From: Zygnema cylindricum | Lineage: Eukaryota > Streptophyta > Zygnematophyceae > Zygnematales > Zygnemataceae | Direction: 5' to 3' | Length of the DNA: 64,000 bases | Assembly (NCBI GenBank): GCA_037447655.1 | Contig: JBBHKE010002374.1 | Location: forward strand, 1 to 64,000 | In this document: positions 3,264 to 51,099 of the stretch, one piece after another | Layout: every line of letters begins with the position of its first letter | Position numbering within the stretch: the stretch's first letter is position 1 | The notes under the pieces: generated by a model | The model's database searches: none | What the model was told of the DNA's origin: nothing | The model's input: the letters and a program-made list of their open reading frames with translations, nothing else | Program-made: the position numbers and the translations under genes

Positions 3264-3356
3264 AAAATATATATACTACTCCTTGTGGGACTTGATCCAG
3301 TGACCTCTGGATGATCACCGTACGGATCAGCCGTGCGCCTTATCCAGTAAGTCTTA
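3264..3356 (-). other. Antisense tRNA-like module (A box, B box, T4) in U3
   Basis: Read on the minus strand from 3356, the sequence has an A-box-like ACTGGATAAGGCG resembling tRNA-Arg D-arms. About 35 nt on is a B-box-like GGATCAAGTCCC. A TTTT run (plus-strand AAAA at 3264-3267) follows. Equivalent modules sit in the other LTR families. Whether Pol III uses it is inference. It is not a canonical tRNA because the arms do not pair fully. Confidence 0.6.
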
Positions 3357-3713
3357 AAGAAATCGACACATACATATGGCGCGATATTTATTTTAAGCTA
3401 TACCGCGCCAGACATTTCATTTAACTAATTACATACAATTTATGCATGGAAACATACCGGTCCGCACAAAATCTGGACCGCACAAAATATACGAATTAAC
3501 ATTTAATTTTGACGGACAAAATCAAATGTCTAGATTTTATCGAACGGCTAATAGTGGAGCCGAAATACCGGAATAGCCATTTGGCGATTTGCGGACCAGA
3601 TGTTGGTGGATGACATGTGGCAACATATGGTTGAACAACGGATATCACGGGAGGAGCAACTACGGCTCCGGAACTGACACGCGTCAGCGGAACGGCCATG
3701 CCGTACTATGGTC

Positions 3714-3750
3714 GTACAAGAAGTACAGCAGTACCTGTACCTTCTTGTAC
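3714..3750. promoter_or_regulatory. GTAC-rich palindrome in U3
   Basis: GTACAAGAAGTACAG is mirrored by CTGTACCTTCTTGTAC, giving a near-perfect hairpin with six GTAC cores. GTAC is the core bound by SBP-domain transcription factors of green plants and algae. A role in LTR transcription is inference. Confidence 0.45.
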
Positions 3751-4087
3751 TTTACAATCCTATGATTGGTCAAAGTACCTTAGAAGTAGGCTTAGAGAGG
3801 TAGCTTAGGACTTAGAATATTTTTGGTTTTCAAGCCTCTCTCCCAGAGTGCACTTGTATTTATGGACCAACTTTGGTCAGCCATAACTTAATGCTCAAGT
3901 GAGCAAATTCAGTGATTCTTTTTGCTGCGGACTCAAGGGAGTCGAGGCTACACGAGGTGTGGTTGGTCAAAGATTTTGTGTCCCAGGGTGGGAATTATTC
4001 ATTGTCAAAATCAAAAGTGCATATACTATCCTAGAGGCTTCACATAAGCTGGACATTCTGTGTACCAATGGAGGTCACAGAATTATA

Positions 4088-4102
4088 GGTTATGGGCCCA
4101 CC
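4088..4102 (+). other. Primer-binding site (initiator tRNA-Met anticodon region)
   Basis: GGTTATGGGCCCACC is the reverse complement of the anticodon stem-loop of plant-type initiator tRNA-Met. It directly follows the LTR. Internal (half-tRNA) priming is known for Drosophila copia and yeast Ty5. The ATG at 4092-4094 inside the site opens the Gag frame. Confidence 0.8.
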
Positions 4103-5250
4103 CTCTAGGGTGCCCATTTTTAATGGAACAGGGTTCATTTATTAGGAAACCATGATAAGGGGTGCACTAGTTGAAAAACGGCTATGGGGCATTGTGAGTG
4201 GTCGTGTGCGTCGGCCATCCGCAAAATTGGGAGTTCCACTAGGGTTTGGAGGATCTCGGTTCACAGGAGGATCTGCGGGGGCAGAGGCGGAAGAGGAGAA
4301 AGCATCGTGTCGGACATAGGGAAGGAGAAGGGGAAGGAAAAACTTACACCGTTGCATACTGGATCGGTTTTGGCAGCAGGTGTTCAAAAAACCGAGGCTA
4401 ATGATAGTGAAATCTAGGATTTCAACAAAATCGTGGCGACTCATTTTATTCTCGGGCATCTCACCCAGGCAGTGGCTACACCTCATCTTCATGTGGACAG
4501 GGCGAACGAGTTGTGGGAGGCACTTGTCAACATTTACAAGAGTGGTACAATTCAGCAGCAGAAGCTGGCAGATCAGAAGGTACAGGCTTATGGGTACAAA
4601 GGGGGAAAAATGTTAGATTTTTGTTATGACTTGGCCGGGTTATTTATGGAGTTAGAGAGTGCAGGGAAAAGGGAGACTGAGAAAGAGAAGGTGAATACTT
4701 TGTTGATGAAACTCCCAGATGATTATGAAAACATTGTTAGTATGGTTCAAGACTTGCCAGATCATCGATGGATCTGGAACTCCGTTGTGGGAATGATTTT
4801 GGTTCGGGAAAACACAATTGAGATTCGTAGAGGAGGAAAGAGTGTTCAGGCATTGGCTGCTGGAACTAATTGGGGAGACAAGGATTCCAAGAAACCTTAT
4901 GGAAACTTTGGTGGAGGGGGAAAAGGAAATCAATCGGAAGGATCTGGATTGAGGCCTCCGAATGGGCTTTGTCACTTTTGTAAGAAGCCGGGACATTACA
5001 TGACAGAGTGTACTAAACTGACAGAGTTGAGATTGAAGGAGGAACAGGTCGGAAAACCAGCCACAAAGAGAAAGAAGGCATTTTTGGCAACACAAGTTAT
5101 CGGAAAGGACTCCGATGAGGACGATGGAGAACTTCTCCTCAACGAGGAGCTGGAGGTGAAAGGTGAGCCGGAGATTCCAAGGAGGAAAAAGTGTGCTTTC
5201 GGTGGAGTAAGAGAAGCTCCTAAAGAAGGATGGATTATTGATTCGAAGCC
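4092..5250 (+). pseudogene. gag: Copia-A gag (broken)
   Basis: Gag is the structural protein that packages element RNA in cytoplasmic virus-like particles. The frame starts at the ATG in the PBS (MGPPSRVPIFNG) and meets a TAG at a position where Copia-D keeps Trp. The largest open stretch is 4433-5347, in another frame. It carries a CCHC zinc knuckle, CHFCKKPGHYMTEC, at about residue 180 of that frame (from 4970). A Lys/Glu-rich tail leads toward the protease. At least one stop and one frameshift separate the N-terminus from the body. The family assignment is firm; no intact protein can be made. Confidence 0.85.
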
Positions 5251-6686
5251 TCTATGCATAAGTGTAGAGAAAACCATTGTTTACCAAAATGAGAAAGATC
5301 CCTACTGTAGAGATAGAGTATGGGGATGGGAGAATAGTCACCACTAATTTAGTGGGATTTGTGGATCTGAGAGTCTTGGTTGATGGAAAGGCATCCATAG
5401 TCACTTTCTCTGATGTTCTTTTTATCCGAGAGTTGAACAAGAATCTTATCTCTACGTCGGTCTTAGATGATAAGGGTTTTGAGACTAGTACTAAGAAAGG
5501 AGTCTTTGTTGCTAGGTATGAGAATGAAGTGTACTTCACAGCTGAAAAGGGTAGCCAAGGAATGTTTAGGCTGAATTTGAGTCCTGGAAAGACGGGAGTT
5601 TACTATGGTGGTGTAAGTGATTTGATGATGTGGCATAAAAGATTGGGACATGTGCATCTAAATGGATTAAAAGATATGAAGAAAATGGGTGTAGTTGAGG
5701 GCATACATTTTGGAGATGATAAGACTTTGGATGAATGTAGTGGGTGTGCTCAAGGAAAAGCTCAAAGGTTGCCTTTTCCAAAAGCCACATCATATAAGGG
5801 TGAAAAGGTTTTAGATTTGGTTCACACTGACATATGGGGACCGGCTAAAGTGCCATCAGTTGGAGGGAAAAGATTTATGCTTACTATCACTGATGATTGG
5901 TCTAGATACTCTAGAGTATATTTCTTGAAAAACAAATCTGAGGCCTCGGCTTATTTTAAGGAATATAAATCATGGAGTGAAAAGCTTCATGAAACACCTA
6001 TAAAGAGAGTAAGAAGTGATAATGGGGGGGGATTCACTTCTAAAGAGTTTGAGGATTACTTGAAAGAGGAAGGGGTTCAACACCAAAAGACTGTCCCAAA
6101 GAACCCAAAACAAAATGGTGTAGCCGAGAGACTAAATCGGACATTAAGTGATAGTGCCCGTAGTATGTTGACGGATAAAAAGATAAGGAAAAGTATTTGG
6201 GCAGAAGCTATGAATTATGCTAACTATCTCAAAAATAGAGTCCTTACCTCAGCTGTAAAAGGTCAAACACCTTATGAAAGATGGACCGGGAGAAAACCTA
6301 ACATATCACACTTAAAGGTGTTTGGAAGTCAAGTGTTAAGTTTAAACACAGAAAAATCTGATTGGAAGTTAGATGCTAGAGGAAAGTTGGGATGCTTACA
6401 TGGGTATGATGAGAACGTAAAAGGGTATAGAGTTTACAATCTCGGTAGAGAAGACATAATTCTAGTAAAACACTTGGTAGTTATGGATGAAAGAAAATCC
6501 ATAGATCCCTTTAAGTATACTAAACCGGTCAGAATTAGAATTGAATCCCAAAGTGAGTTAGAGGCAGATTCTACTAACCGAACTCCGGTTCAGCCTGACT
6601 TTGCAGAGGAAGAGAAAAATCTGACCGAGAGTGATCCGCTTTTGGAGTCACATCTTCTAATTCAAACCGAGGAAGAAAACGAGTAA
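5230..6686 (+). pseudogene. pol: Copia-A protease remnant and integrase
   Basis: The protease active-site region near 5230-5260 reads IIDSKP instead of a D-S/T-G motif and is followed by a frameshift, so the protease is dead. From 5277 a 469-codon frame carries the GAG-pre-integrase domain with WHKRLGHVH and CSGCAQGK (HHCC zinc site), then the integrase core: HTDIWGP, RSDNGG and, further on, QNGVAERLNRTL with the third acidic residue. The integrase inserts element cDNA into nuclear DNA. The RSDNGGEY motif is altered to SDNGGGF. The frame ends at 6686 in a hydrophilic linker. Confidence 0.88.
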
Positions 6687-8505: not shown

Positions 8506-8506
8506 G

Positions 8507-8519
8507 AAAATAAGGGGAG
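8507..8519 (+). other. Copia-A polypurine tract
   Basis: AAAATAAGGGGAG abuts the 3' LTR start TGTTGAAAAG. This is the expected plus-strand priming site, and the same motif occurs before the B 3' LTR. Confidence 0.8.
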
Positions 8520-9491
8520 TGTTGAAAAGAGAGGTATTTTGTAGTCTTTTTTTGTGGACTTACTGCAGCCCTCATACTTGTCGTAGTCACTGAGGACCTG
8601 TAGGCAGCCATGGCTGTCTGTTGCAGCTAAAGGAGACAGGAAGTTCATTAATTACAGATTTTTTCTACAAAACATAGACTGCCCCTTGTGGGACTTGATC
8701 CGTTAACCTACGGATGTCCGCCGTACAAATTAGACGTCCGCCTTATCCCGTAGGTATTGAAGTAATCGATTCATGCATATGGCGCAATATTTATTTAAAG
8801 CTACACCGGGCCGGACATTTCATTTAACTAATTACGGGACAATTTATGCATGGAAACATAACGGTCCGCACGAAATTGGGAACGCACGCTATATACGAAT
8901 TAACATTTAATTTCGACTGACGAAATCAAATGTCCAGATCTGATCGAACAGCTCACACTGGAGCCGGAATGCCGGAAAAGCCGTTTCGCGGTTTGCAGTC
9001 CAGATGTTGGTGGATGACACGTGGCAACAAATGGCTGGACAGCGGATATCACGGGAGGAGCAACTACGGCTCCGAAACTGACACGTGTTAGCGGAACGAC
9101 CATGCTGTACTATGGTCGTACAAGAAGTACAGCGGTACCTGTACCTTCTTGTACTTTACAGTCTTATGATCAGTCGAAGTACCTTAGTAGTAAGCTTAGA
9201 CAAGTAGCTAAGGAATTAGAATATTTTTGGTTTTCCAGCCTCTCTCCCAGAGTGCACTTGTATTTATGGACCAACTTTGGTCAGCCATAACTTAATGCTC
9301 AGGTGAGCAAATTCAGTAATTCTTTTTGCTGCGGACTCAGGAGAGTCCAGGCTACACAAGGGTGTAGTTGGTCGGAGATTTTGCGTCCCAGGGTGGGACA
9401 TATTGATTGTCAAAGTCAAAAGTGCATATACTATCCTAGAGGCTTCACATAAGCTGATTATTCTGTGTATCAATGGAGGTCACAAAAAACA
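8520..9491 (+). repeat. Copia-A 3' LTR
   Basis: Pairs with 3120-4087 and keeps TG...CA ends. It retains an intact G-box CACGTG at 9018-9023 (CATGTG in the 5' copy) and the GTAC hairpin at about 9119-9156. The two LTRs differ by scattered substitutions, suggesting a moderately old insertion. Confidence 0.88.
8669..8759 (-). other. Antisense tRNA-like module in the 3' LTR of Copia-A
   Basis: On the minus strand it shows A-box-like ACGGGATAAGGCGG, B-box-like GGATCAAGTCCC and a TTTT run (plus-strand AAAA 8669-8672). It is homologous to the module in the 5' LTR. Confidence 0.58.
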
Positions 9492-9500
9492 AGAACAACG

Positions 9501-9571
9501 TGAAACTTTGTGAGCTCCATTCCCTGAGAGAATTCGCAGATCCAAAGAAGCTTATCTAGATAATGCCAACT
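9501..9571 (-). repeat. Solo LTR C1, left piece (interrupted by Copia-B)
   Basis: TGAAACTTTGTGAGCTCC through CCAACTCC matches the left part of solo LTR C2 (10584 onward). The sequence resumes at 17281 after Copia-B with the same order as C2. It lies about 5 bp beyond the TSD of Copia-A. Confidence 0.75.
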
Positions 9572-9576
9572 CCAAG

Positions 9577-10569
9577 TTTTGAAATTACTAAATTTATAGG
9601 GAATTTTCTAGGTCAAAATAGATTAGCGGAAAACGAGAAGAATCGTGCAGGCAGCCAGCCTCCACCCCTTCTCTCTAGCCCCCATACTTGTCCTAGTCAG
9701 TGAAGGAGAGAGAGAGTGGTGGAGCCATGGTTGCCTCGACTCCATACGCAGGACTGAAAAGTGACATAAGGTTGAGTCAAGCAGGACTCGAACCTCCGAC
9801 CAGTAGAGCGAGGCGTAGCCGTCAGCTCTAATCGGTCTATCATAGGAGTTCATTAGAATACATAGGGTGTGATAAAAATCTAAATTGTGTTATGATCCTA
9901 AATCTGATTAACGAAATGATGAATAAAAGAACATAAAAGTAAATACTTAAAGTGCAAACATGATCTCACACAAAACATATGAATCAGACATTTGTTTCGA
10001 CGACTAATATTAAATGTTGGTTTAGGATCCGACAACACATATCGCTGCCGAAATCCCAGAATGGTCACTTTGGCGGTTTTCAAACGTGGCGTGACCTAGC
10101 GACACGTGGAGAAATAACATTCGTCGGGAGAATTTCGGAGAATATAAGGACGAGTTAAAAGTGGACAAGCGTCCACTCAATGGCCTTGTTGTATACAAGC
10201 CGCACTAAAAATTGTACATCGGCCGTACTTCTTTTTTTGTACTTTACAATGATTTGATTCGATCGTACTATGGTAGATAGGGGTTGTGAGAGGGGTTTTG
10301 GGACTTAAAACCTTTTTGTTGAAAGTCACCTCTCACATTGAGAGTTTGAATAAATTACTATTTTTGCCACCCCATAACTAATCGGTTGGTTGGCTGTTTT
10401 CAGTAATTCTTTTTGCTACAAACTTAAGGGAGTCCAAAATACACAAGGGTGTAGTCAGATTGTCAATTTCTGTGCTTGGGCAGTAGAGGTTGTGGCAGGA
10501 AGTGGGTTAGTTTAAAACTACCTAGAGAATTCCTGAGTTTTGTAGTACAATGGAGGACACAAAATTGCA
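9577..10569 (+). repeat. Copia-B 5' LTR
   Basis: Aligns from TTTTGAAATT (TG mutated) to TTGCA with the 3' LTR, which keeps TGTTTAAATT. It carries the tRNA-like module, a G-box CACGTG at 10103-10108, GTAC motifs at about 10190-10250 and a GGACTTAAAACCTTTT version of the conserved motif near 10310. Confidence 0.88.
9757..9845 (-). other. Antisense tRNA-like module in Copia-B 5' LTR
   Basis: Minus strand: A-box-like GACCGATTAGAGCTGACGG, then a perfect B box GGTTCGAGTCC (plus 9784-9794), then TTTT (plus AAAA 9757-9760). Box spacing is close to that of real tRNA genes. This is one of the best B-box matches in the set. Confidence 0.65.
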
Positions 10570-10583
10570 GGTTATGGACCCAC
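10570..10583 (+). other. Copia-B primer-binding site
   Basis: GGTTATGGACCCAC directly follows the LTR end GCA. It differs by one base from GGTTATGGGCCCAC of the other elements. The ATG at 10574-10576 is the expected Gag start; its frame is severed by the C2 LTR inserted at 10584. Confidence 0.75.
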
Positions 10584-11887
10584 TGAAATTCTATGGGCTC
10601 TATTGCCACACAGAATTCGCAGGTCCAAAGGAAGCTAATCTAGATAGTGCCCACTCCAACTTGATATAAACCCAAATGATTGACCCCTTGAAAATCAGAA
10701 ACCCATTAAAACTTCACCCCTGTGAAGTAAGACTCTCTGTGTGCTCAGTTCCACCACAGAATGCAAAGTTAGAATATGAGATTTGGACACATTCCCCCAC
10801 TTTGACTTTCCCTTAGAAATGCAGCCACCCAGACATGCAAAAACTCTGATCGACTACACCCACTGTGTAGCTTGGACTCCCCTGAGTCCGCAGCAACAAC
10901 AATCACTGAAAATTGGTCAACTGAGTTCATAGTTATGGCTAGCCAAAGTTTGCCATTTATACAAGGTGCTCTCTGGGAGAGGCAGCTACCTACTAGAAAT
11001 ATTCTAAGTCCTAAACCCCTCTCTAAACCCTCTAGTACTGAGGTACAGACCAATCGCATTACTGTATAGTACATAAAGGTACAAATGCCGGTGTACCTTT
11101 TGTACGGTTATCGTACGACACGGCTTCAAAGTAAACACATGTTTTATTCGGATTCGCTCTTATAATCTCCGAAGTTCCTGCCTCCAAATCTTATCTCTCC
11201 ACGTGGCGCCAGGTCATGCCGCGTCATAAAATTGGTACCGTACAAGAAAGTACAAGTGCCGGAGTACATTCTGTACGTACATTGTACGATGTCGTCATAA
11301 TGCGACATTTCTCACTTCCAGATTTATTTTCTGCCGTTCGGGAAATTCCGTTATCCCGTAAGTTGTTGCCACGTGTCATCCGGAGTTGCGGAGTCCGAAA
11401 ACCGCTAAATTGTCCTTTCCGCGAGACCGGCGCTAACCACGGCCGTCCGATTGATATTGGTATTAAATACGAACCGTCGAAACAAATGTCCGTACTATTT
11501 GTTTCGTCCGGTACTAATAGTACAACTGTTTCTATGTCTTATAGACCGTAATCTAGTTAAATGGGAAAACCTACGTTTATTTGTTTAAATACATATCAAA
11601 CCCTATGTCACTTAGCACAAGTCCTAGACTAAACGGTGAAGGCTAACGGCTATTGTGACGGACGGCAGGTTCCAGGATCAAATCCTGGGTCCGTCACACC
11701 TTTTGGTAAATCTACGCAGATTCTACTACCTGTCTCTCTAGACAGCTTTGGCAGCCATGGCTCTGGCTTCCTCTTCAGCCTCCAGTAACTACAACAAGTG
11801 TGGGGGCTTGGAGAAGAAGTTAGAGGCAGACTGCCTCTGCTATTTTCCTATCCTAAAATAGACCTAGAAAATACTCAAATATCAACA
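10584..11887 (-). mobile_element. Solo LTR C2 inserted in Copia-B
   Basis: A 1304-bp LTR on the minus strand: read from 11887 it begins TGTTGATATTTGAG and ends TTTCA at 10584. It is flanked by a perfect 5-bp duplication CCCAC (10579-10583 and 11888-11892). There is no internal region, so it formed by LTR-LTR recombination. It carries G-boxes at 11200-11205 and 11370-11375, a GTAC-rich block at about 11241-11290 and a tRNA-like module. Confidence 0.88.
11622..11704 (+). other. tRNA-like module (antisense to LTR C2)
   Basis: A-box-like ACGGTGAAGGCTAACGG, a T-arm-like CCAGG-ATCAAAT-CCTGG stem-loop (B-box-like 11675-11685) enclosed by a 9-bp perfect stem GTGACGGAC/GTCCGTCAC, then TTTT at 11701-11704. 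The outer stem resembles an acceptor stem stacked on a T arm; the remaining arms are degenerate. Confidence 0.62.
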
Positions 11888-11892
11888 CCCAC

Positions 11893-16225: not shown

Positions 16226-17280
16226 TGTTTAAATTACTCTATTTATAGGGTATTTTCTAGGTCTATATAGATTAGCGAAAAACGACAATTAAAGTGTAGG
16301 TAGCCTGCCTCCAGTGCTTCTCTCTAGCCCCCATACTTGTTGTAGACAGTGAAGTAGAGAGACGCTTCTCTCTAGCCCCCATACTTGTTGTAGACACTGA
16401 AGTAGAGAGAGTGTGGAGGAGCCATGGCTACCTCAGTTTGATACGAAGGACTGAAGAGTGACATAAGTCACTCTCAACAAAAGGCTGAGTCAAGCAGGAC
16501 TCGAACCTCCGACCGACAAAGCGAGGCGTAGACGTAAGCTCTAACCGGTTAGTCGTAGGAGTTCGTTAAAAGACATAAGGTGTGATAAATATTTAAACTG
16601 TGTTATGATTTATATCCGATTAATGGAATGACGAGTAAAAGAACATAAAACTAACTAATATATAGTGTGAACATGATCTCACACGAAACAAATAAATCGG
16701 ACATTTGTTTCGATGACTAATATTAAATGTTAGTTTAGGATCCGACGGCACATATCGCTGCCGAAATCCCTGAATGGTCACTTTGGCGGTTTTCGAACGT
16801 GGCGTGACCTGGCGACACGTGGAGAGATAACATTCGGTCGCGAGAATTCTGGAGAACATAAGGACGAGTTAAAAGTGGACACGCGTCCACTCAATGGCCT
16901 TATCGTATATAGGTCTTATAGAAAGTACATCGGTCGTAGTACTTTTTTTGTACTGTACACTGATTTGAATGGATCGTACTATGGTAGATAGGTTTTGTGA
17001 GATTGGTTTTTAGACTTAGAAACTTTTTGTAGACAATCACCTCTCTCATTGAGAGTTTGTATAAATTGGCATTTTTGACACCCCATAACTAATTAGTTGG
17101 TTGGTTGTTTTCAGTGATTCGTATTGCTACAAACTGAGGGGAGTCTAGAATACAGAGGGGTACAATCAGATTGTCAAATTGTTTGCTTGAGCAGTAGTGG
17201 TTGTGGCTGAAAGTGGGTTAGTTTAAAACTACCGAGAGGCTTCCAAAATTATGTAGTACAATGGAGGACACAGAATTGCA
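16226..17280 (+). repeat. Copia-B 3' LTR
   Basis: Starts TGTTTAAATT and ends AATTGCA at the TSD CCAAG. Contains a local direct repeat of the CTTCTCTCTAGCCCCCATACTTG block at about 16317-16390 that is single in the 5' LTR, accounting for much of the length difference. Confidence 0.88.
16479..16559 (-). other. Antisense tRNA-like module in Copia-B 3' LTR
   Basis: Minus strand: TAACCGGTTAGAGC (A-box-like), perfect B box GGTTCGAGTCC (plus 16497-16507), then TTTT (plus AAAA 16479-16482). It is the partner of the module at 9757-9845. Confidence 0.65.
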
Positions 17281-18430
17281 CCAAGTTGATACAATCCCAA
17301 ATGATTGACACATTGACTGTCAAAACCTTCAATTGAGCTTCACCCTTATAATCTCTGTGCTAAAGAAGACAATCTCTGTGCTTAGTTTCCTAAGTTTCAC
17401 CTTTGTGAAAGAAGACAATCTATGTGCTCAGTTCCCTAACAGAGTGCAATATTAGAATATGAGTATTTGGACACATTGCCTCAATTTGAATTTCCCTTAC
17501 AGATGCAGCCACCGTGGAATTCAAAATACGTGACCGACTACACCCGTATGTAGCTTGGAATCTCCTGAGTACGCAGCAAAAAGAATCACTGAGTTTGTTA
17601 CCCTAAGCAATTAGTTATGGATGGTCAAAGGTTAATGGTCAAAGTTGACCTATTGTACAGAAGCACTCTCAGAGAGAGGGGGCTACCTTCTATTTTTCTA
17701 AGTCCTCAATCCCTCTACAAACCCCTTTCTATTAAAGTGCGGCACCTCTCTCAAGACTGTACCGTACAGAAAAGTACAAGCGCCAGAATACATTTTGTAT
17801 GGCCACTCTTCGACATGGCCATAAATGTGACGCCTTGGTGTGATGCTTCCGAAGATTCCGCAAGTGAATGAGATGCTTCCATGTGTCATCATGTGTGACG
17901 CTGACCGCAAACCGCCAAACCGACCATTTTGCGATGCCGGCATGCACCATGGCCGTCCGATCGGTTACCAATATCTGATTTCGTTTGTTGAAATGAAATG
18001 TCGTTTCTTTAATTCCGTGCGGTCTAAAATTCGTGCGGTCTGGTTCATTTCTGTGTACAATCCGTACCGTAATTTATTAAATGAAACATATCGCGTTGTT
18101 CGTATTCATATAATTATCGTACCCTATATACTTTAGCATTGGTCTTGGACTAAGGGATAAGGCTAACGGCTACTGGCCACTCAGACGGACGGTAAGTACC
18201 AAGATCAAATCCTGGTTCCGGCAGTCCCTTTTGGTACAGAAAAAATTTAGCCTACTCTTTGTCTCTTTGGACAGCATGGGCAGCCATGGCTCTGACTCCC
18301 TCTCTAGTCTTTAGTGATTGCGACAAGTGCGGGGACTTGGAGAGTTAAGTAAGAAGTAGACTACCTTTGTTGTTTTCTCTTCCATTGTTTTTTTCCTATT
18401 TCAAACCTAGAAAATACATAAAATTCAACA
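17281..18430 (-). repeat. Solo LTR C1, right piece
   Basis: Continues the C-type LTR split by Copia-B, beginning with the TSD copy CCAAG and ending TTCAACA (minus-strand TGTTGAA start). With the left piece it totals about 1.22 kb, close to C2. It contains AGTGC/GTAC blocks, a GGCCGTCCGATC motif near 17951 and a tRNA-like module. The outer TSD (CAACG/CCATG) is poor. Confidence 0.8.
18145..18232 (+). other. tRNA-like module (antisense to LTR C1)
   Basis: A-box-like TAAGGGATAAGGCTAACGG, B-box-like AGATCAAATCC at 18201-18211, TTTT at 18229-18232. Homologous in position to the C2 module. Confidence 0.58.
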
Positions 18431-22725: not shown

Positions 22726-23562
22726 TGTAACTCTGAGAACCTCAATAGGTCCTCAAAATAGGCAGCTCACACGAAGCCTCTAGGATAACCTTGACCCCTT
22801 TGTGTTTCAACAAGAATAGCTGCTACCCTAGCAAACAAAATCTCAGACCACCTTCACCCTTGTAAAGACAAGACTCCCTTGAGTATATAGCAAAAAGAAT
22901 CTCTGAATTTGCTCCCCTGAGTAGTAAGTTATGAAGGGTTAAAGTTGAGCTTTTGTACAGAAGCTCTCTAGGAGAGAGGGTCTATTCTATGAAAATTTTC
23001 GAAGTCCTATCTCTCTCTAAAACTTTATCAATTGAAGTACGGCACCAATGAAAACAGTGTAACGTACAAAAAGGTACAGGTGCCGATGTACTTTATGTAC
23101 GGCCATTGTACGATAAGGCCAAGAAGTCGACACATGTCATTTTTGGATTCGATCCTGTAATTCATGGAGATGTTGTAATCGAATGTGATTGTGCCACGTG
23201 TCAATTGACGTGACGTCAACCGTAATCCGCAGAAAACCTATTCCGCGATCTCGACATGCATTGCGGGCGTTCGATTAAACCGGAATTAAATCTTAGCCGT
23301 CATATATACTTGCGCAGTATTTGTTTCGCCTACAAAACAAAGTGTGCGATATCTATAGATAGATAGTTAAATCTACCAATCTAATGTCTTTCCACGTTTG
23401 GATAGCATAGGTGGCCATGGCTCTATCTCTCTCTCCAATTTTCAATGACTGTAACAAGTGTGGGAGTTGGAGAGAGGAGTTAGAGGTAGATTGCCTCTAC
23501 TTCTTTTTCTGCATTTTTATAAAACCTAGAAAATACTAAAAAAATAACCTTAAATTTCTACA
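22726..23562 (-). repeat. Copia-E 3' LTR (internally deleted)
   Basis: Minus-strand start TGTAGAAATT at 23562. Compared with the right LTR it lacks about 200 bp around 23350, precisely the interval that carries the tRNA-like module. TAGATAGATAG simple sequence lies at the junction. Confidence 0.82.
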
Positions 23563-27950: not shown

Positions 27951-28917
27951 TTCTAACTATGAGACCTCCATAGGTCCTCAAAATAGGCAGCTCACACAAA
28001 GCCTCTATGATAATTGTGACCCCTTTGTGTTTGAGCAAGAATAACTGCCACCCAGGCAAACAAAAACACTGACAACCTTCACCCTTGTAAAAGTAATACT
28101 CCTCTAAGTCTATGGCAAAAAGAATCTCTGAATTTGCTCCACTGAGCAGTAAGTTATGAAGGGTCAAAGTTGATCTTTTGTACAGAAGCTCTCTGGGAGA
28201 GTGGGTCTATTCTATCAAAATTTTCTAAGTCCTATCTCTCTCTAAATCTCTATCTACTAAAGTACAGCACCAATCATAATAGTGTATCGTACAAAAAGGT
28301 ACAGGTGCCGGTGTACTTTATGTTGGGCCATTGTACGACATGGCTAAAAAGTTCACACATGTCATTTTTGGATTCGATCCTGTAATTCATGGAGATGTTG
28401 TAATCCAATAAGATTGTGCCACGTGTCAATTGATGTCACGTTGACAGCAAACCGCAGAAAACCTATTGGGGGATCTCGGCATGCTTCGCGGCCGTCCGAT
28501 TAAACCATAATTAAATCTTAGCCGTCATAAATACATGAGCGGTATTTGTTTCGCCTACGAAACAAAGTGGGCGGTATCTGTTTCGGAATTTTTGTACGCC
28601 GTATAACAAAACTATATCTAAGTCCAAAAATCGTGTTAAATGAAAATAGCGTACACGTAAACATTTATATACCTATCAAACCCAATATCATATAACATTG
28701 GTATAGACTAGTGGCTTACGCTTCCGACTATTGGTAAATTGACAGACGGTAGGTACCTGGTTCAAATCCCAAGTCCATCAAGTTCTATTCTGGTAAATCA
28801 ACCAATCTAATGTCTTTCCTCGTTTGGATAGCATAGGCGGCCATGGCTCTATCTTCCTCTCCAACTTTCAGTGATTGCAACAAGTGTGGGAGCTAGAGAG
28901 AGGAGTTAGAGGCAGAC
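27951..28917 (-). repeat. Copia-E 5' LTR (outer end deleted)
   Basis: Aligns with 22726-23562 from GACCTCCATAGG-like sequence onward but stops in GAGTTAGAGGCAGAC, about 110 bp short of the true LTR start. Retains the G-box at 28420-28425, the GGCCGTCCGATT motif near 28490 and the tRNA-like module. Confidence 0.82.
28705..28780 (+). other. tRNA-like module (antisense to Copia-E LTR)
   Basis: A-box-like ACTAGTGGCTTACGCTTCCG and a perfect-type B box GGTTCAAATCC at 28759-28769. This copy lacks a clean TTTT; the tail reads TTCTATTCTGG. Confidence 0.58.
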
Positions 28918-31392
28918 GTTTCGATTCGAGAATTGAGATCAAACAACGGAGGGGAGTATATGTCCTATGAATTTAAAAGGTTTCTTTTGGATGAGGGTAT
29001 TAATCGGCAACTGAGGGTTCCAAATACGCCTCAACAGAATGGTGTTTCAGAAAGGTTAAATAGAACAGTTATAGAGAGTGCTAGATCCATGTTTGCATAC
29101 AAAAGTGTAGATTTAAAATTCTGGGCTAAGACCCTTAACTGTGCAGTTTACATAAAGAATAGGATTGCATCAAGATCAGTTAGCACTACACCATATGAGC
29201 TATGGACAGGTAGGAAACCTCACGTCAATCATTTTAAAGTTTTCGCAGTAAGTGCTTCATTCTTAACACATCACACAACACTTGGAAAATGGAACCGAAA
29301 GGCTTACCTGGTATTCTAATAGGATATGATGATAACTCTAAGGGGTGTAGGGTGTATGTATTTGATAAACAAAAAGTAGTTGTGTCAAGGAATATCATTA
29401 TAAAAGATGAAGGAGAATCGGCTGATTATTTCACCATGAAAGATAAACCGGCGGAAGAAAAATTTCAGGATTATGTCATCTTTGACAAAAAGAAGACAAT
29501 TTGCTTTTAGGTTCCTCAACAGCCACCTATGGAGACTTGCAGTTCCTCATCAGCCGCCTATGGAGACTCTCTCTACGGACACTCAAGTCCCTCTTACGGC
29601 TCCCTCGAAGCCAGCTACACCACTCTCGGAGAACACATATCCCTCTCCACGACAGACAAAGAACGCCAAACATCCATCGATCCAGACATCTGTCGATCTC
29701 CGCCTCAGAATTTCCGAGGGGAAAGAGATATAGCAACCGTCTGCAATCTGGATCGCACTTTGCATTCACTGCCGCCTCGGAGGAACCTCTGACCATTCGA
29801 GAGGCCTTCTCTTCACCGAAAAGAACTCGATGGATCGAGGCAGCAAATGACAAGATGAAATCCATCATGGAAGCTCAAACTTGGGAGTTGGTCGAGCTTC
29901 ATCTGAACAGAAAAGCCATCGCGAGTAGCTGGGTGTTCAAGGTAAAATTAAATCGGGATGGCACAATTTAAAGGTATAAAGCCAGACTTGTGGCCAAAGG
30001 TTACAATCAGAAAGAGGGAATTATTTCGAGCAGACTTTCTCTCCGGTTGTAAGATTTCCAACTGTTAGAATTTTGTTAAGTCTAGCTGCAATTGAGAATA
30101 TGGAAGTCTATCAGATGGACGTCAAAACAACCTTTATGCATGGAGAGTTAGAAGACACTATATATATGCAACAACCAGAAATGTATGAAGTAAAAGGAAA
30201 AGGGAAATTAGTGTGTCAACAGTTAAAATCCTTGTATGGGCTAAAACAGGCCCCTAGGATGTGGAACCTAAAGCTAGATGTGTTTCTAACCAAACTAGGT
30301 TTTAAAAGGATTAGTTCAGATCACTCTGTGTATATATTGCAAGGGGAGGATAGAATACCTTATATTGTTGTATATGTAGATGATCTACTACTTATTGGCA
30401 AGTCTATGAGTGAAATAAACCACATTAAGGAAGCCTTAAAATCAAGATTTGAGATGAAGGACCTCGGAGAGGCCAAGTATAATTTAGGAATACAAGTAGA
30501 GAGAGATAAGAACAAGGAAGTAATCATGTTGACTCAAAAAGAGGCTATAGGAAATATGCTTGAAAAATTCGAAATGAATGAAGTAAAAGGGTGTGTAGCT
30601 CCTATAGAGTTTAGACAGAAATTGGAGGGAGATGACTCAGATTCTAGTATTCTAGTCAGTGAAAGTCTAGATTCAGGGGAGGAGGAGTTTATGGCCTCTA
30701 AACCATACAGGCAGGTAGTAGGCAACCTCATCTATTTTATGAACTGCACAAGGCCGGATATCATAGTTGTTGTTGGTGTTCTAAGTAGGAGCTTGTAGAA
30801 TCCAAAGAAATCAGATTGGGATGCCGCAAAGAGGGTTCTCAGGTACATGGCAGGGACTCGGAACCTCAAACTTGTTCTCAGAGGTGGAGAAGTGAAACTA
30901 CAGACTTGGAGCGATGCTAGCTGTGGCCACATGCCTAACCGAAAGTCAACGACTGGTTTTGTCTTGCCGGTTGGAAATGGAACTTGTTGTTGGAGCAGCA
31001 AGCTTCTAAAGGTCACGGCACAGTCAACAATGGAGTGGAGTTGGAGTATATGGCTGCAAGATCGGCACTTAAAGAGCTCCTATGGGTGAAAGCACTTCTA
31101 CAAGAACTTGGGTACATGCAGACTTGACCTTAAGTCATTTGGTGTGATAACCAAGCTGCCATTACCATTGCCATTGCCTCCAATCCCTGCCATCACTTTA
31201 AAAGTAAGCACATGGATATCAGGCTACACTTTGTCCGAGAAAAGGTGCTTGCTAGAGTCATCAAATTGTGTTTTTTGGCTGATGAAAGAATGGTCGCAGA
31301 CATGCTAACCAAGGCTCTCTCTGCACCAAAGTTACAGTTTTGCAAAGATGCTATTCGACTAAGTGACTAGCTGAGACTAAAGCTTTAGGGGA
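28918..31392 (+). pseudogene. pol: F' element: integrase to RNase H and 3' end
   Basis: Continues F' after Copia-E. 28933-29319 carries integrase RSNNGGEY (D of RSDNGG changed to N) and QNGVSERLNRT. 29289-29510 and a Pro/Ser-rich linker follow. RT is at about 29790-30798 with QMDVKTTFMHGEL, LYGLKQAPRMW and YVDDLLLIG. RNase H is fragmented beyond 30799, with STMEWSWSIW replacing the usual MEAEY. It ends in CTTTAGGGGAG before the shared LTR. Several stops and frameshifts are present. Confidence 0.85.
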
Positions 31393-42173: not shown

Positions 42174-42183
42174 NNNNNNNNNN
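42174..42183. other. Assembly gap (10 N)
   Basis: Ten ambiguous bases join the unfinished F LTR to unrelated sequence. The real gap length is unknown. Confidence 0.98.
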
Positions 42184-43057: not shown

Positions 43058-43250
43058 GGAATCTGAAATCTCCGAAAAAGATTTCGATGCCCGCTATGTT
43101 TTTAAGTCCGAGATCGAACGAGAAAAACTGACAAGAAAGTCCCGTTTTTTGTCAGGATGCAGACGTACTTTTAAACTGGGAACATCTTATTTTTTAGTAC
43201 GCACCGCACTCGACGAGAAATTAGTGCTTTTGGCGCTTTTGGGGCTTTAG
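43014..43250 (+). CDS. Probable C-terminal continuation of the 42449 gene in the next frame
   Basis: Open for 78 codons, overlapping the end of the previous frame. It is acidic then basic (KFALSEESEISEKDF, SEIEREKLTRKSRF) and ends in a Leu-rich tail, similar in composition to the upstream protein. A one-base change in the A6 run at 43038-43043, a sequencing error or a short intron would connect them. It is unlikely to be an independent gene. The cause of the break cannot be decided from the sequence alone. Confidence 0.42.
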   Translation: MNTMIPLPKKFALSEESEISEKDFDARYVFKSEIEREKLTRKSRFLSGCRRTFKLGTSYFLVRTALDEKLVLLALLGL

Positions 43251-44591: not shown

Positions 44592-45212
44592 TACACCGCG
44601 AATCGTAATTAGAGTAATGAAAAAATTAGAGTAAAAAGGCCAAATAAAACAATTAGAGTAATTGACGCTAATTTATGTGATAGAGTTTTTCTAACGATGA
44701 AGTTTACTCTAATTTATTTAGTTATTCTATATTGGGTTATGTCGGCGATAATTATGTGCGCGATAATTATGAACACTAAATTACTTAATCGTACAAAATG
44801 TGTCAGTCCGGTATAGCATTGACGTCATTATGACGCTAATAACATTTGTCGCATGCAATGTCAGTTAATGTTCACACTGACGACGATGCTGTCGACGGAC
44901 GAGAGTTATGCGAACGACTTTTTTAGATGTGATTGATTTTTTTGTTTAGTGCGATTTCACGTGGGAGCGCGATTCTATTATATCATTATTTGTACCTTTT
45001 TACTTATAAAAGTACATTTAAGCATCGTTAGACGTCGTCAGTATTCCACACTATTTAAAAATGACTTATATTACAATTTTTTACGCTAAAAAAACCTCAC
45101 CTAAATTAGAATAATGAAAAAATTAGAATCGATTACTCTATTTGATGTGATAGAGTCGAAATTTCAAGCGACCGAATTAGAGAAATTTACTCTAATTATG
45201 ATTCGCGGTGTA
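44592..45212. repeat. Inverted-repeat (MITE-like) element, about 620 bp
   Basis: TACACCGCGAATCGTAATTA at 44592 and its mirror TAATTATGATTCGCGGTGTA ending at 45212 form 26-bp terminal repeats with few mismatches. AT-rich subterminal repeats of ATTAGAGTAA/TTACTCTAAT recur inside. No transposase frame. It may use a TA target; not certain. Confidence 0.6.
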
Positions 45213-45365
45213 AACAATAATAATAAAAGTTAGGCAATAACAATATTAGCGATACACGGTGTAGTCCACTTAAGTGTCAGCGTACGGAACAGAAAAGCAA
45301 AGCCACGCAAACACGGCACTGCAAACACGGCACAGGACATGCGCGGAAAACACGACACTAAATTT

Positions 45366-46255
45366 TGAAATTTTGTGGTCTCCATTGACCCACAGAATGA
45401 GCAGCCTATGTAAAGCCTCTAGGATAATATTTGCCCCTTCTACTTTCCCGCTGAATAAGCGCCGCCCAGGCACACAAATATTTTGACCACTCTCACCCTT
45501 GTGAGGACAAGACTCCCTTGAGTCAAACGCAAAAAGAATCACTGAATTTGGTCCCCTGAGCAGTAAGTTATGGCTGGTCAAAGATGACCTTTATAGTTAC
45601 AAGCTCTCTTAGAGAGAGAGGTACCTAAATATTACTAAGTCTCGGTCTGCCTACTCACGACTACCTACTACTAAACCCTAGTCCAATAGGAACACTATAT
45701 AGTATAAGAAGGTACAATGGACGATGTACTTATTGTACGACCATTGTACGACAAGGTCTACAAGGTGACACCTGCCAAATCGGAAGCCATGGTTCCTCCT
45801 CCCATCTTCTCCGGTATCAAATAATGTGGCGCCACGTGGCACCGCGTGACGCTATCTCCGTATGGCGCCAAAAAGCTCACTTCGCGTGGCGGCTATAATG
45901 CCGGCCGTCCGATCAAAATATATTTTACACGGTTCAGATTCGCGTACATGCAGAAATTGCTCCTTTTGGTTAGTCTGCTGTTAATTAGCTGTTGGGTTAA
46001 TGTTTATATATTTATGAAACCCGTCACGTGTATCGTTTCGTAACGCCTTAATGGTTAAGGCGTTAGGCTATAGAGAATATAGATGTCACAGGTTCAAATC
46101 TAGACATAGGCATCATTTTAGTAAAATACCCTTTACTCCAAAAACTGCCACTTTCTAAATATGGCGGCAGCCATGGCGCGCCTTTGATCCTCACTCTCTT
46201 TCTTTAAAGCAAAGCTAAAATAGGGAAGTGAACTATTAATTACCTCTTTTCAACA
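45366..46255 (-). repeat. Copia-D 3' LTR
   Basis: Minus-strand start TGTTGAAAAGAGG at 46255, end near TGAAATTTTGTGG at 45366. A G-box CACGTG is at 45833-45838, GGCCGTCCGATC near 45902, GTAC motifs near 45710-45750, a TATATAGTA motif near 45694 and a tRNA-like module. The purine tract on the minus strand (AATTAAGGGGAG) adjoins it at 46256. Confidence 0.88.
46041..46119 (+). other. tRNA-like module (antisense to Copia-D 3' LTR)
   Basis: A-box TAATGGTTAAGGCG resembles tRNA-Ser/Leu D-arms. B box GGTTCAAATCT is at 46091-46101 and TTTT at 46116-46119. GCCT and AGGC at the two ends could pair as part of an acceptor stem. Confidence 0.65.
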
Positions 46256-46268
46256 CTCCCCTTAATTC

Positions 46269-49183
46269 CTAGTCACTTTTCAATTTTAATCCACAGTTTT
46301 CTCTGCAATAAATAAACTTAGGGGAAGGCACTGCTGCTGTTGTCATCATGTCTGCAATCATTTCTCTATCAGTTTTATGAACCAGTTTAATAATTTTATT
46401 TTCTACCTTCTCTCTGACAAAGCTTAGTCTAATATCCATATGCTTAGTTTTGAAGTGATGTTTCGGATTAGCTGCAATAGAGATATCAGCTTGATTATCA
46501 CAAAAAACATTTTGAGTTCTAAACTTCATGAACCCAAGTTCTTCAAGAAGAGATTTAACCCACATTAATTCTTTGGTGGCAGCACAGGAAGTCATGTATT
46601 CAGCCTCCATAGTGGACTGAGCAACTACTTTTTGTTGCTTGCTACTCCAATAACATGCACCGGATCCAATTTGCAACACATATCCAGTCGTACACCTCCT
46701 TAAAGGCACATCTCCATAACTGGCATCACTCGAAGTGGTGATGTCAGTGTGCTCCCCTCCCAAATGCAACCATAATTCCCTTGTCCCCACTAGATACCTC
46801 ATCACCCTTTTGGCAGCCTCCCAGTCTCTCTTTCTTGGTTCATTTAGATTTCTACTAAGGACACCTACAGCTGCAGCTATATCCGGACGGGTACAATTCA
46901 TAAAATAAATTAAACTGCCTACAATCTGCCGATAAGGGATATTTTCCATAAATTTTCATTCTATCTCATCCATCTCATCATTAATGATCAATATTCCTCC
47001 CTCTTCACTCCCCTCACTCACTTTCTTCAAATCCATGGGAGTAGTACATCCGTTTGCTTTCTCCATTTGAAATTTTTCTAGCATATTACCGATTGCTTCT
47101 TTTTGAGTGAGTTTTATAATTCTATTCCCTCTATCTCTCTCCATCTGAATTCCCAAGATGTACTTTGCTTCGCCAAGATCTTTCATATCAAAGCTGCTTC
47201 TAAGATCCCGTTTTAGTTTGTTAATTTTATCTAAGGACTTGCTTAACACCAACAAATCATCCACATAAATAGCAATAAATATAACTCCATTCTCATCCTC
47301 AAATAAATATATAGAGTGATCTGAACTAATTCTGATATACCCCAAACCGGTCAGAAATCCGTCGAGCTTTATATTCCACTGTCGCGGGGCTTGCTTAAGC
47401 CCATAGAGTGATTTTATCAATTTGCAAACTTTGTTTTCTTCCCCACTTTCCACGAATCCTTCTGGTTGCCTCATGTAAATTTCTTCTTCCAACTCTCCGT
47501 GCAAAAAGGCAGTTTTAATATCCATCTGGTGGACTTCCATATCCTCCGCTGCGGCTATACTTAAAAGGATTCTAACAGAAGGAAATCTGACTACAGGTGC
47601 AAAGGTTTCTTCGTAGTATATCCCCTCTTTCTGAGTATAACCTTTTGCAAATAACCTAGCTTTGTACCTCTCAATGGTATTATCCGGGTTTAATTTAAGT
47701 TTAAACACCCACTTACATCCGATCGGTTTTCGGTCCGGTGGACAATCTACCAACTCCCATGTATTGGCTTCCATGATAGAGGCCATTTCTTCATTTATAG
47801 CTGTGATCCATCGGCTACTTTCTGGAGTGTTTATGGCCTCTAAGTATGTTTGAGGTTCATCTGGGTGAGACATCTTTGTGAGTTGGTTATTTACTTGTCT
47901 TTTTTGAAGTCGTTTACTACTTCTTCTTCCCCCTTGAAAATCAGACGCCGGTATGGAAGGCATCCTTGGGTTTCTTTTTGGGAGATTTTCAGCTCCCCTA
48001 TCTTCCAATTCCGGTGTCTCATCAAGTTCCTCATCGGTTTCCACTTCGTATTGTGGCGTTGCCTCGGGTGTTGTCCTTTCCTCCTCCTTTGGTAGATCTG
48101 CAGATTTTTCTTTTTCTCCCTCTTCCTTCTCTTCATTTTCAAAGTCAAGAAAACTGATCCGTTTCAAATCTGATTTTGACTTCCCTATTATATTTTGATG
48201 AATCAATGGACTTCTCTTCATTCATCACCACTATGTGTTTTACCAGAATTATATCTCTCTTTTTCAAGTCATACACTCGGTATCCTTTTGTGCTCTCATC
48301 ATATCCTACAAGATATCCTGGCTTTCCTCTCCCTTCTAATTCCATTTAGTCTTATCGGAATCCAAATTGTAGACTTGACTTCCGAACACTCTCAAACTAG
48401 ACAAATCAAGCTTTCTTCCTGTCCACCTCTCATACGGAGTTTCCTCTTTATTTGCTGAAGTTAGGACTCTATTTTTGATGAAATTAGCATAGTTCATAGA
48501 CTCCGCCCAAAACTGCAACCCTATCCTCTTATCAGTTAACATACTTCTGGACATATCTCCTAAAGTTCTATTCACTCTTTCTGCTACTCCATTTTGTTCC
48601 GGATTATAGGGAACAGTTTTCTCATGATGAATTCCTTCTTCTTTAAGATATTCTTCAAATTCCCTTGAGGTGTATTCTTTTCCATTATCACTTCTTATCT
48701 CTTTTATTGAGGTTTCGTGTAGTTTTTCACTCCATACTTTATACTCTTTGAAACATCTTAATACCTCTGACTTATGTCTGAGAAAGTATACTTTCGTGTA
48801 TCTAGACCAATCATCTGTGATGGTTAACATCCATCTCTTCCCCCCATGTGAAGCATACCTAGCAGGTCCCCAAACATCAGTGTGAACTAGTTCTAATACT
48901 TTCTCTCTCCTAAATATGGTTGCCTTTGGAAATAGAAGTCTATGAATCTTCCCTTGGGCACATCCACTGCAATCATCAAAGGTCTCATCATCCTCAAAAG
49001 TAATACCCTCCACTATTCCTTTTTTCTTCATTTTCTTTAATCTATCTAGATGCACGTGCCCCAACCTTTTATGCCAAAACATCATCTCACTTGCACATGA
49101 GTAGAGAACACTCTTTTCATTGCAAAGAACAATTCTGAACATTCCTTGGCTGCCCTTCTCAGCTATGAAATAAACCTCATTAA
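46269..49183 (-). pseudogene. pol: Copia-D integrase, reverse transcriptase and RNase H (three lesions)
   Basis: The best-preserved pol in the window. 49142-48336 holds FWHKRLGHVH, CSGCAQGK, HTDVWGP, RSDNGKEYTS and QNGVAERVNRTL. 48345-48145 holds the integrase C-terminal part. 48221-46956 holds the acidic linker and RT with GCKWVFKLKL, HQMDIKTAFLHGEL, LYGLKQAPRQW and YVDDLLVL. 46949-46269 holds RNase H with SDASYGD, STMEAEY, CDNQADISIA and HMDIRLSFVREKV. Two frameshifts (near 48340 and 48170) and one TGA (46956-46958) interrupt it. Upstream it breaks at about 49185, at the inversion, without a protease. Confidence 0.88.
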
Positions 49184-49203
49184 GCGCGCTTGCCGCTCTT
49201 TCA

Positions 49204-49218
49204 GGTTATGGGCCCACC
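49204..49218 (+). other. Copia-D primer-binding site, displaced by inversion
   Basis: GGTTATGGGCCCACC, identical to Copia-A. It lies about 1 kb from the 5' LTR and in the opposite orientation, so it cannot prime normal minus-strand synthesis of this copy. Confidence 0.8.
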
Positions 49219-50233
49219 CTCTAGGGTGCCCATATTTGATGGATCAGACTTTCTTTATTGGGAAATGATGATGGAGGGAGAACTATTTGAGAAGCATCTA
49301 TGGGGCATAGTGTATAGACAAATTCGATGCCCACCTCCACCTGGGTTTGGAGGGACACGTTTTTTTGGCACCTTCGCCTCTACAGTTGGTAGAACAACTG
49401 CCACCATCACCGAGGATGAAGATGAGGAAGGAGAGGAGATTATCATGGAAGGAGAAAAGGGAGGAATTTCAACTCAAGTGACACCATTGCCGAAGGCGAT
49501 ACCGGCAGCAGCACCACCAAAAACGGCGACAAGGGTTCAGACCGAAAGATCGGAGTATGAAAAGTGGAACTACAAAGACAAGGTTGCTAAGCTCTTAATT
49601 CTTAAAAGTATAGCAAAGGGCATTGCCATTCCCCTTATGCAAGTCAAATCTTCATCTCAGATTTGGATATCACTAGTTAACAAATATAAGAGTGGATCAT
49701 TGCAGCAACAACAGTTGGCCGAAAATAAGATTGCAGCTTATACTTATAAAGGAGGAAGTATGAATAATTATTGCAATGATTTAGGAGCATTATTTGGAGA
49801 GTTAGAGAGTGCAGGTAACTCATGGTCCGAGAGACAAAGAGTGAACACATTAATGATGAAACTACCTGAAGAGTATGAGAATATCATTAACCGATTGCAG
49901 GACATGGGAGATAGCAATTGGGATGACACAGTGGGAATGATTTTAGTGAAAGAAAGCACCATAGAACTTAGGAGAGGGAGTCCAAGTGTTCAAACATTGT
50001 CTGCAGGAGCTGATTGGCGGAAGCGTGATGAGGAGAGAGGGAAAGATCCTTATCGAAACTTTGGTGGAAGAGGACAAGGAGGTGGCAGATTTGATAGACA
50101 GTGGAGAGGAACTTCGCGAGGAGGATTATGTCACTTCTGCAAGAAACCGGGACACTATATGGCAGATTGTGTCAAACTTGTAGATCTTCGACTGAAAGAT
50201 GGTCAAGGAACCTCAAGGGATGGTCTCCATTGA
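49208..50233 (+). CDS. gag: Copia-D Gag (intact frame, 341 residues)
   Basis: The only complete Gag in the window. The ATG at 49208 lies inside the PBS and gives MGPPSRVPIFDGSDFLYWE, the typical copia Gag opening (aromatic residues then W). Residues about 25-50 continue with EKHLWGIVY; a Glu-rich low-complexity stretch follows. The UBN2-type core has LVNKYKSGSLQQQQLAE and LMMKLPEEYENIINRLQ. A Gly/Arg-rich segment precedes the zinc knuckle CHFCKKPGHYMADC at about residues 308-321. The last codons and stop come from the abutting LTR. An earlier in-frame TTG at 49190 is not a likely start. The inversion separates it from its LTR promoter. Confidence 0.82.
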   Translation: MGPPSRVPIFDGSDFLYWEMMMEGELFEKHLWGIVYRQIRCPPPPGFGGTRFFGTFASTVGRTTATITEDEDEEGEEIIMEGEKGGISTQVTPLPKAIPAAAPPKTATRVQTERSEYEKWNYKDKVAKLLILKSIAKGIAIPLMQVKSSSQIWISLVNKYKSGSLQQQQLAENKIAAYTYKGGSMNNYCNDLGALFGELESAGNSWSERQRVNTLMMKLPEEYENIINRLQDMGDSNWDDTVGMILVKESTIELRRGSPSVQTLSAGADWRKRDEERGKDPYRNFGGRGQGGGRFDRQWRGTSRGGLCHFCKKPGHYMADCVKLVDLRLKDGQGTSRDGLH

Positions 50234-51099
50234 CCCATAGAATGAGCAGCCTATGTAAAGCCTCTAGGATAATATTTGCCCCTTCTACTTTCCCGCTTAA
50301 TAAGCGCCGCCCAGGCACACAAATATTCTGACCACTTTCACCCTTGTGAGGACAAGACTCCCTTGAGTCAAACGCAAAAGGAATCACTGAATTTGCTCCC
50401 CTGAGCAGTAAGTTATGGCTGGTCAAAGATGACCTTTATAGTTACAAGCTCTCTTAGAGAGAGAGGTACCTAAATATTACTAAGTCTCGGTCTGCCTACT
50501 CACGACTACCTACTACTAAACTCTAGTCCAATAGAACACTATATAGTAAAAGAAGGTACAATGGGCGATGTACTTATTTTACGACCATTGTACGACAAGG
50601 TCTACAAGGTGACACCTGTCAAATCGGAAGCCATGGTTCCTCCTCCCATCTTCTCCGGTATCAAATAATGTGGCGCCACGTGGCACCGCGTGACGCTATC
50701 TCCGTATGCCGCCAAAAAGCTCACTTCGCGTGGCGGCTATAATGCCGGCCGTCCGATCAAAACATATTTTACACGGTTCAGATTCGCGTACATGCAGAAA
50801 TTGCTCCTTTTGGTTAGTCTGCTGTTAATTAGCTGTTGCGTTAATGTTTATATATTTATGAAACCCGTCACGTGTATCGTTTCGTAACGCCTTAATGGTT
50901 AAGGCGTTAGGCTATAGAGAATATAGAGGTCACAGGTTCAAATCTAGACTTAGGCATCATTTTAGTAAAATACCCTTTACTCCATAAACTGCCACTTTCT
51001 AAATATGGCTGCAGCCATGGCGCGCCTTTGATCCTCACTCTCTTTCTTTAAAGCAAAGCTAAAATAGGGAAGTGAACTATTAATTACCTCTTTTCAACA
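50221..51099 (-). repeat. Copia-D 5' LTR
   Basis: Nearly identical to 45366-46255 but lacks the last ~10 bases (TGAAATTTTG) that should join the PBS; the inversion breakpoint falls here. Ends TTCAACA at the TSD. Confidence 0.88.
50885..50963 (+). other. tRNA-like module (antisense to Copia-D 5' LTR)
   Basis: Same A box (TAATGGTTAAGGCG), B box GGTTCAAATCT at 50935-50945 and TTTT at 50960-50963 as in the other D LTR. Confidence 0.65.

Follow-up and report, generated by a model that had tools for sequence, protein, structure and literature searches.

The 64-kb window analysed here (contig C1791, positions 1-64000, in a 352.8-Mb assembly of the alga Zygnema cylindricum) is filled with nested Copia retrotransposons, as recognized by self-BLAST and sequence reading, and nine of their long terminal repeats (LTRs) carry a short tRNA-like module in U3. 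On our best reading, this module appears to be a tRNA-derived RNA polymerase III (Pol III) promoter that faces outward from the element, entered the U3 of a Copia clade by a single capture and has been kept since. We hold the anatomy of the module, as described below, with high confidence, and an active Pol III unit to be fairly probable from its sequence.

The first-pass annotation had placed nine such modules in the window, and we located all of them, each in antisense orientation to its own LTR (Table 1). As also claimed there, a TTTT run follows closely behind every module except the one at 28705; in these 8/9 modules it lies 14-23 nt after the B box, as compared to a background in which 17% of 30-nt antisense U3 windows contain TTTT. 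The distance from the LTR start, given as 140-330 nt, agrees closely with the 136-284 nt that we found for eight of the nine modules, with approximate LTR starts for E2a, Xb, and E3b and with E2b left out. In addition, upstream of the B box, 7/9 modules have a TATA-like string at a distance of 84-98 nt. The modules at 11622 and 18145 belong to solo LTRs of a separate family (X), inside or beside the E2 element, and the tenth LTR of the module-bearing families, the 3′ LTR of E3 (E3a, 22728-23562), has lost its module by deletion.

Type 2 (tRNA-type) Pol III promoters have the B box consensus GGWTCRANTCC. The B boxes of the window modules match GGTTCRANTCC at 8-10 of 10 positions. When the families are aligned (nine rows, E3a left out), the antisense B box scores 9.17/10, as compared to 6.75 at the next-best place, and none of 3000 permutations that preserve column conservation reaches this score (maximum 8.58). 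With the bases of the tRNA variable loop added, in an extended motif picked after the modules had been inspected, the score is 13.33/15, again reached by 0/3000 permutations (maximum 10.92). The LTRs of the E4/E7, E5, and E6 elements differ from those of the module-bearing families, and in the six copies of the E5, E6, and E7 LTRs the best antisense B box does not exceed 7/10, and neither strand scores above 8. A plain scan for the A and B consensus proved too weak to serve as proof: it yields 11 matches, as compared to a mean of 3.6 and a maximum of 9 in Markov resamples (n = 100), and recovers 7/9 modules (missing those at 16479 and 18145) together with four other places.

How far does this architecture extend beyond the window? 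A motif in the R region, outside the module, has 2889 + 2794 matches (5,683) in the whole genome, as compared to 10 + 5 for its reversed control. Our sample consists of the 100 places at the head of this listing, all on contigs C1-C41. Their selection did not depend on the module, but the LTRs fall into 26 clusters and are thus neither a random nor an independent sample. The antisense B box (GGWTCRANTCC) is present at 9/10 or better in 70/100 LTRs, versus 10 in sense orientation and 10 after shuffling (one shuffle each), and is perfect (10/10) in 40/100, versus 1 and 0. Of the 70 boxes at 9/10 or better, 69 are located upstream of the R motif, at a distance of 546-829 nt. The extended motif, combining the variable loop and the T-arm, whose design and search range were fixed when the modules and the first B-box count were already known, is found antisense at 11/15 or better in 88/100 LTRs (sense, 12; reversed, 18). 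TTTT lies within 30 nt behind the module in 84/88 (median 15 nt; background 20.7%). Both the B box and the T-run terminator of a type 2 promoter are found in the window and in the sample alike. The modules are spread over 21/26 clusters, or 20 without L149, one of the 88. Finally, a B box anchored to GCCATGGCTGCC at a distance of 50-80 nt was searched for in all 353 Mb, and is present at 1157 + 1035 = 2,192 antisense places, a slightly high figure because a few listed places look like another repeat, as compared to 3 + 2 for the reversed control and 0 + 0 in sense orientation. The placement is therefore not random in orientation, and the fixed antisense tRNA-like Pol III architecture in U3, originally claimed for this window, reaches far beyond it and into many families. 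No relatives were found among viral contigs with the R motif (58 loci, with matches of only 19-24 nt) or among plasmids with one stretch of an E8 LTR.

In an alignment of the ten LTRs of the five families, all of the modules fall in the same columns, which are deleted in E3a, and the module occupies one alignment position in 20/20 cluster representatives of the genome sample. As judged from these alignments, the modules are homologous, one ancestral module having been inherited rather than five captured independently, and the nine antisense placements therefore represent one inherited event. The annotation had taken the sequence differences between families to mean a shared architecture rather than one recent copy. 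The architecture is indeed older than any of the families, but separate Arg-like and Ser/Leu-like origins are not supported, the families sharing a single homologous module.

Identity between the families (E3a dropped) is 0.81 in the B box, 0.73 in the TATA-like block, and 0.70 in the A/D-loop core, as compared to 0.35-0.43 around and between them. Among the 20 representatives, the B box carries 1.36 bits; the bins towards the terminator have 0.58-0.82, and those extending to the A region 0.62-0.88. In 21 representatives (L149 included), information content is highest in windows over the TATA-like block, the B box, and the A/D-loop region, with a CAAACC block coming next. The conserved parts resemble a plant tRNA promoter, with a TATA-like/CAA block, a weaker A box, a B box, and a T-run; TATA, CAA, and poly(T) are described as signals of plant tRNA genes in the available part of PMC11700998.

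Several observations weigh against this reading. Regarding the promoter parts, the annotation had described both A- and B-box-like sequences at tRNA spacing, of which the B box stands firmly and the A box is only moderately supported: its score is 6.58 versus 5.94, and 81/5000 permutations reach it. The pattern used did not find a TATA-like string in E1a and E2a, and the terminator columns have an identity of 0.44, which 67% of the windows equal. The proposal that the boxes are conserved above the LTR background holds against the immediate flanks, but less well against the whole of U3/R. Among the 20 representatives, which had already passed the motif threshold and thus favour the B box, the B box lies within the top 9.5% of the U3/R alignment windows without being the top one, and neither the A nor the TATA-like window ranks among the best 16, because conservation is higher in the R region (used for sampling) and in several U3 blocks. 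Regarding the sample, the LTRs are clustered, the extended motif was chosen after the fact, L149 is probably a chance match, and 12/100 LTRs lack the module, seven of them in clusters whose other members carry it.

The remaining adverse points concern the tRNA itself. ARAGORN detects no tRNA in the modules at its default setting or at 95%; at 80%, in a run made without a control, it reports weak tRNAs in 4/9, so relaxed-mode tRNA finders may report such LTR modules. The Rfam tRNA model gives 20.1 bits in Xa, with a gathering threshold of 29, nothing in three other singly scanned modules, and no match at E ≤ 10 in the 20 representative loci. The modules thus lack the cloverleaf above detection thresholds that marks a functional tRNA gene. 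A common RNA fold is also absent across the nine window modules (alifold, 0.0), and both a functional tRNA and a common fold for the whole set are ruled out, although single modules may fold. The cloverleaf is not conserved. Nevertheless, some constraint on the RNA is possible: 4/9 window transcripts fold better than their shuffles (z −2.7 to −3.6), and a subgroup retains a hairpin made of the T-arm and acceptor-like strands, with at least 5 of 7 acceptor-like pairs, as defined from Xa, kept in 30/88 modules (L149 included), as compared to 0-7 in slid controls.

We searched for the parent tRNA in a reference of 34 host sequences of 11 kinds plus the initiator tRNA (tRNA-iMet), which lacks Ser, Leu, and many other kinds. 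With this reference, the best matches of the 20 representatives are iMet (8), Asn (6), Arg (4), Lys (1), and Gln (1), and those of 9/20 representatives beat all 60 shuffles. The 5′ halves of the modules are best matched by Arg D-arms in 48/87, and the 3′ halves by iMet in 37/87. Six sampled modules (L067, L070, L099, L123, L125, and L158) have a 6-7-bp acceptor-like stem directly before the variable loop, as though the intervening D and anticodon arms of a tRNA had dropped out; the host tRNA-iMet, which is the element's own primer, is the best match of their 3′ half.

The rival explanation that survives best is a fossil: a tRNA or a tRNA-derived short interspersed element (SINE) would have fallen into an ancestral LTR and been merely inherited while decaying, with the box conservation reflecting the kinship of the families. 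The loss of the cloverleaf, of the terminator in E3b, and of the whole module in E3a, the LTRs without a module, and the higher conservation of other LTR parts are all in keeping with this explanation. It does not account well for conserved B-box, TATA-like, and A-core positions that stand out from the sequence around and between them, or for T-runs that persist in nearly all of the sampled modules despite a diverging transcript body. We therefore regard a mere fossil as rather unlikely.

How would an outward-facing Pol III promoter have arisen and act? The common ancestor of a Copia clade primed by a half tRNA-iMet would have had an old tRNA-derived sequence in its U3, in antisense orientation. 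TFIIIC would bind the A and B boxes, TFIIIB would assemble on the TATA-like block, and Pol III would start about 25-30 nt downstream of that block, the usual spacing. The predicted RNA of about 85-100 nt would read outward, end at the T-run within U3, and be antisense to the 3′ U3 of the element's genomic RNA. The R region and the presumed RNA polymerase II (Pol II) start would lie several hundred bp downstream of the unit, which, being antisense, is not expected to initiate the sense genomic RNA.

Since about two thousand places and many families carry the module, it is probably used. Pol III transcription, insulation, and the capture of a SINE, suggested earlier as its roles and origin, are inferences from sequence. 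An effect at the level of DNA would be the likeliest of the roles, because the promoter parts have been kept and a common RNA structure has not; TFIIIC and TFIIIB occupancy may keep U3 accessible, or stop silencing from spreading, beside the Pol II promoter of the element. We propose this role tentatively, as a possibility. A regulatory role of the antisense RNA would rank second, and stays alive because the T-runs are frequent and hairpins are present. In its full form, each Copia LTR would encode an antisense Pol III RNA, possibly derived in part from the primer tRNA-iMet, that base-pairs with the 3′ U3 of the genomic RNA and controls expression, copy number, or reverse transcription; we consider this unlikely. 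If the Pol III promoter reading is true, a single LTR serves both the Pol II and the Pol III machinery, and elements of this kind scatter TFIIIC sites and short antisense RNAs across the host genome. These LTR-borne TFIIIC sites could then be tested as insulators, silencing triggers, and integration targets.

Alternatively, the conserved blocks might be sites for Pol II factors that resemble the boxes by chance, with the module serving the sense promoter only. The palindromic GCCATGGC and the G-box-like CACGTGG blocks are among the most conserved U3 sequences in the five families (for example, at 3204-3217 and 46166-46179), and, without any link to Pol III, are more conserved than the B box. 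However, the variation within the B box follows the rules of tRNA: in tRNA numbering, positions 54, 57, and 59 vary, while 55, 56, and 58 are invariant in 9/9. The variable-loop bases at tRNA spacing, and the T-run where a tRNA terminator is expected, further argue against Pol II sites, which we regard as quite improbable.

Ty1 integrates at Pol III genes. Ty3 and Dictyostelium TRE5-A are described as doing so in the available parts of PMC8632968 and PMC5391098. That the module is a similar landing pad, at which Pol III factors would steer the integration of related elements beside the LTRs, is in line with the position of Xa, which went into the E2 primer binding site (PBS) some 740 bp upstream of the E2a unit, and with Xb at the matching place of the E2 3′ LTR, but these are two insertions in one window, and we find this explanation very improbable.

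Table 1. LTRs of the module-bearing families and their antisense modules in the window
Feature	Position	Strand	Remarks
E1 5′ LTR, Copia	3120..4079	+	self-BLAST 3120-4082 vs 8520-9487, 87%; TG start 3120; PBS 4088; end approximate
E1 3′ LTR	8520..9484	+	self-BLAST; end approximate
E2 5′ LTR	9577..10565	+	both ends approximate; PBS at 10570
Solo LTR Xa (family X)	10585..11887	-	sits in E2 PBS; CCCAC on either side
E2 3′ LTR	16365..17272	+	83.8% to 5′ copy; start provisional
Solo LTR Xb (family X)	17280..18430	-	ends approximate
E3 3′ LTR (E3a)	22728..23562	-	module region deleted (LTR alignment)
E3 5′ LTR	27954..28946	-	self-BLAST; PBS 27951(-)
E8 3′ LTR	45376..46255	-	97.8% to 50221-51100 (self-BLAST)
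E8 5′ LTR	50221..51099	-	self-BLAST
E1a module	3264..3356	-	B box 3288-3298(-)
E1b module	8669..8759	-	B box 8691-8701(-); TATA-like string 98 nt upstream of B box
E2a module	9757..9845	-	B box 9784-9794(-), 10/10 match
Xa module	11622..11704	+ (antisense to - strand LTR)	B box 11675-11685(+); T-arm and acceptor-like hairpin kept
E2b module	16479..16559	-	B box 16497-16507(-)
Xb module	18145..18232	+	B box 18202-18212(+), AGATCAAATCC
E3b module	28705..28780	+	B box 28759-28769(+); without TTTT terminator
E8a module	46041..46119	+	B box 46091-46101(+); TATA-like near 46003-46010; TTTT 14 nt past B box
E8b module	50885..50963	+	B box 50935-50945(+)

The coding parts of the window elements are those of Copia: 9/10 scanned frames match the Pfam Copia gag, integrase, reverse transcriptase (RT), or related domains. 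In the Pfam scan, E1 (about 6.4 kb, + strand) has gag, integrase, and RT domains, and E8 (about 5.7 kb, − strand) has gag and RT domains, its integrase stretch lying outside the scan; the frames of both are broken. The protein matches listed have 27-56% identity and are scattered over plants, animals, and metagenomes, with none listed for gag. In E8, whose LTRs are 97.8% alike, the PBS-gag block is on the + strand (49184-50230 and 49204), and the − strand holds the RT and both LTRs. E8 therefore carries an inversion between its 5′ LTR and pol.

The two family X solo LTRs, both inverted, lie at the matching place behind the 5′ and 3′ LTRs of E2 (10570-11892 and 17272-18430), and Xa splits the E2 PBS. 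We ruled out a palindromic 2.2-kb E2 LTR: Xa is an inserted solo LTR, because it is flanked by CCCAC and because Xa and Xb (about 71% alike) differ more than E2a and E2b (84%). Between 22205 and 42173, E4/E7 look like an internal-LTR-internal-LTR arrangement with one LTR in common near 31.4-32.4 kb; the first E4/E7 copy has E3 nested in it, and the second has E5, with flanks CCTCG/CCTCC. The E7 3′ LTR is interrupted by a stretch of 10 N (42174-42183), and positions 53422-53927 are minisatellite-like, with copies mostly at 8-14-nt steps.

The PBS GGTTATGGGCCCACC is present with 0-1 mismatch in E1, E3, and E8, and with two in E2, and is complementary at 15/15 positions to the anticodon arm of the host tRNA-iMet (six loci shown of nine matches). 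Both the iMet sequence and the PBS look plant-like, judged by the plant form of iMet. A further PBS-like string with one mismatch lies at 55901-55915 (+), outside the annotated elements. In the available part of Neumann 2019 (PMC6317226), no plant Copia lineages other than Osser, Bryco, and part of Gymco-II are given a half-tRNA-Met PBS. The window elements share this primer type; that part of the paper does not mention a tRNA-like LTR module for them.

Pol III promoters in LTRs have so far been described, in the portions of the sources available, for miniature elements (Cassandra and Helenus) and foamy viruses. Cassandra, a terminal-repeat retrotransposon in miniature (TRIM), has a 5S-derived Pol III promoter in its LTRs (PMC10886601, as excerpted), and resembles our elements in that a Pol III promoter has been fixed in plant LTRs over long times; it differs in that its promoter derives from 5S instead of tRNA, sits in a TRIM, and transcribes the element itself. 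The foamy-virus U3 holds Pol III miRNA cassettes that yield defined hairpin miRNAs, according to the available part of PMC7693620, whereas the hairpin of the Copia modules is confined to a subgroup and is not common to all families.

We found no description of antisense tRNA-like modules in Copia LTRs among the papers listed by our searches of the open-licence literature, where the nearest case is Helenus/TRIMp3 (Kojima 2024, PMC10886601). As portrayed in the excerpts of that paper, Helenus elements are TRIMs of 311-1263 bp without coding capacity, which have a tRNA-like sequence with conserved A and B boxes within the LTR and have kept the promoter while mostly losing the tRNA function. Fungal Helenus is linked there to Copia, its commonest primer type being the iMet anticodon loop; the box is treated as the element's own promoter, and autonomous partners are reasoned to need Pol II. 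Our LTRs likewise contain a tRNA-derived A/B-box sequence, with a weaker A box. In contrast, E1 and E8 carry gag/pol domains and are not short non-coding TRIMs, and the module is antisense in every window copy and at all of the anchored places in the genome, with no sense counterpart. What is new here, as compared to the known Pol III promoters of LTRs, is the antisense orientation and the coding Copia context.

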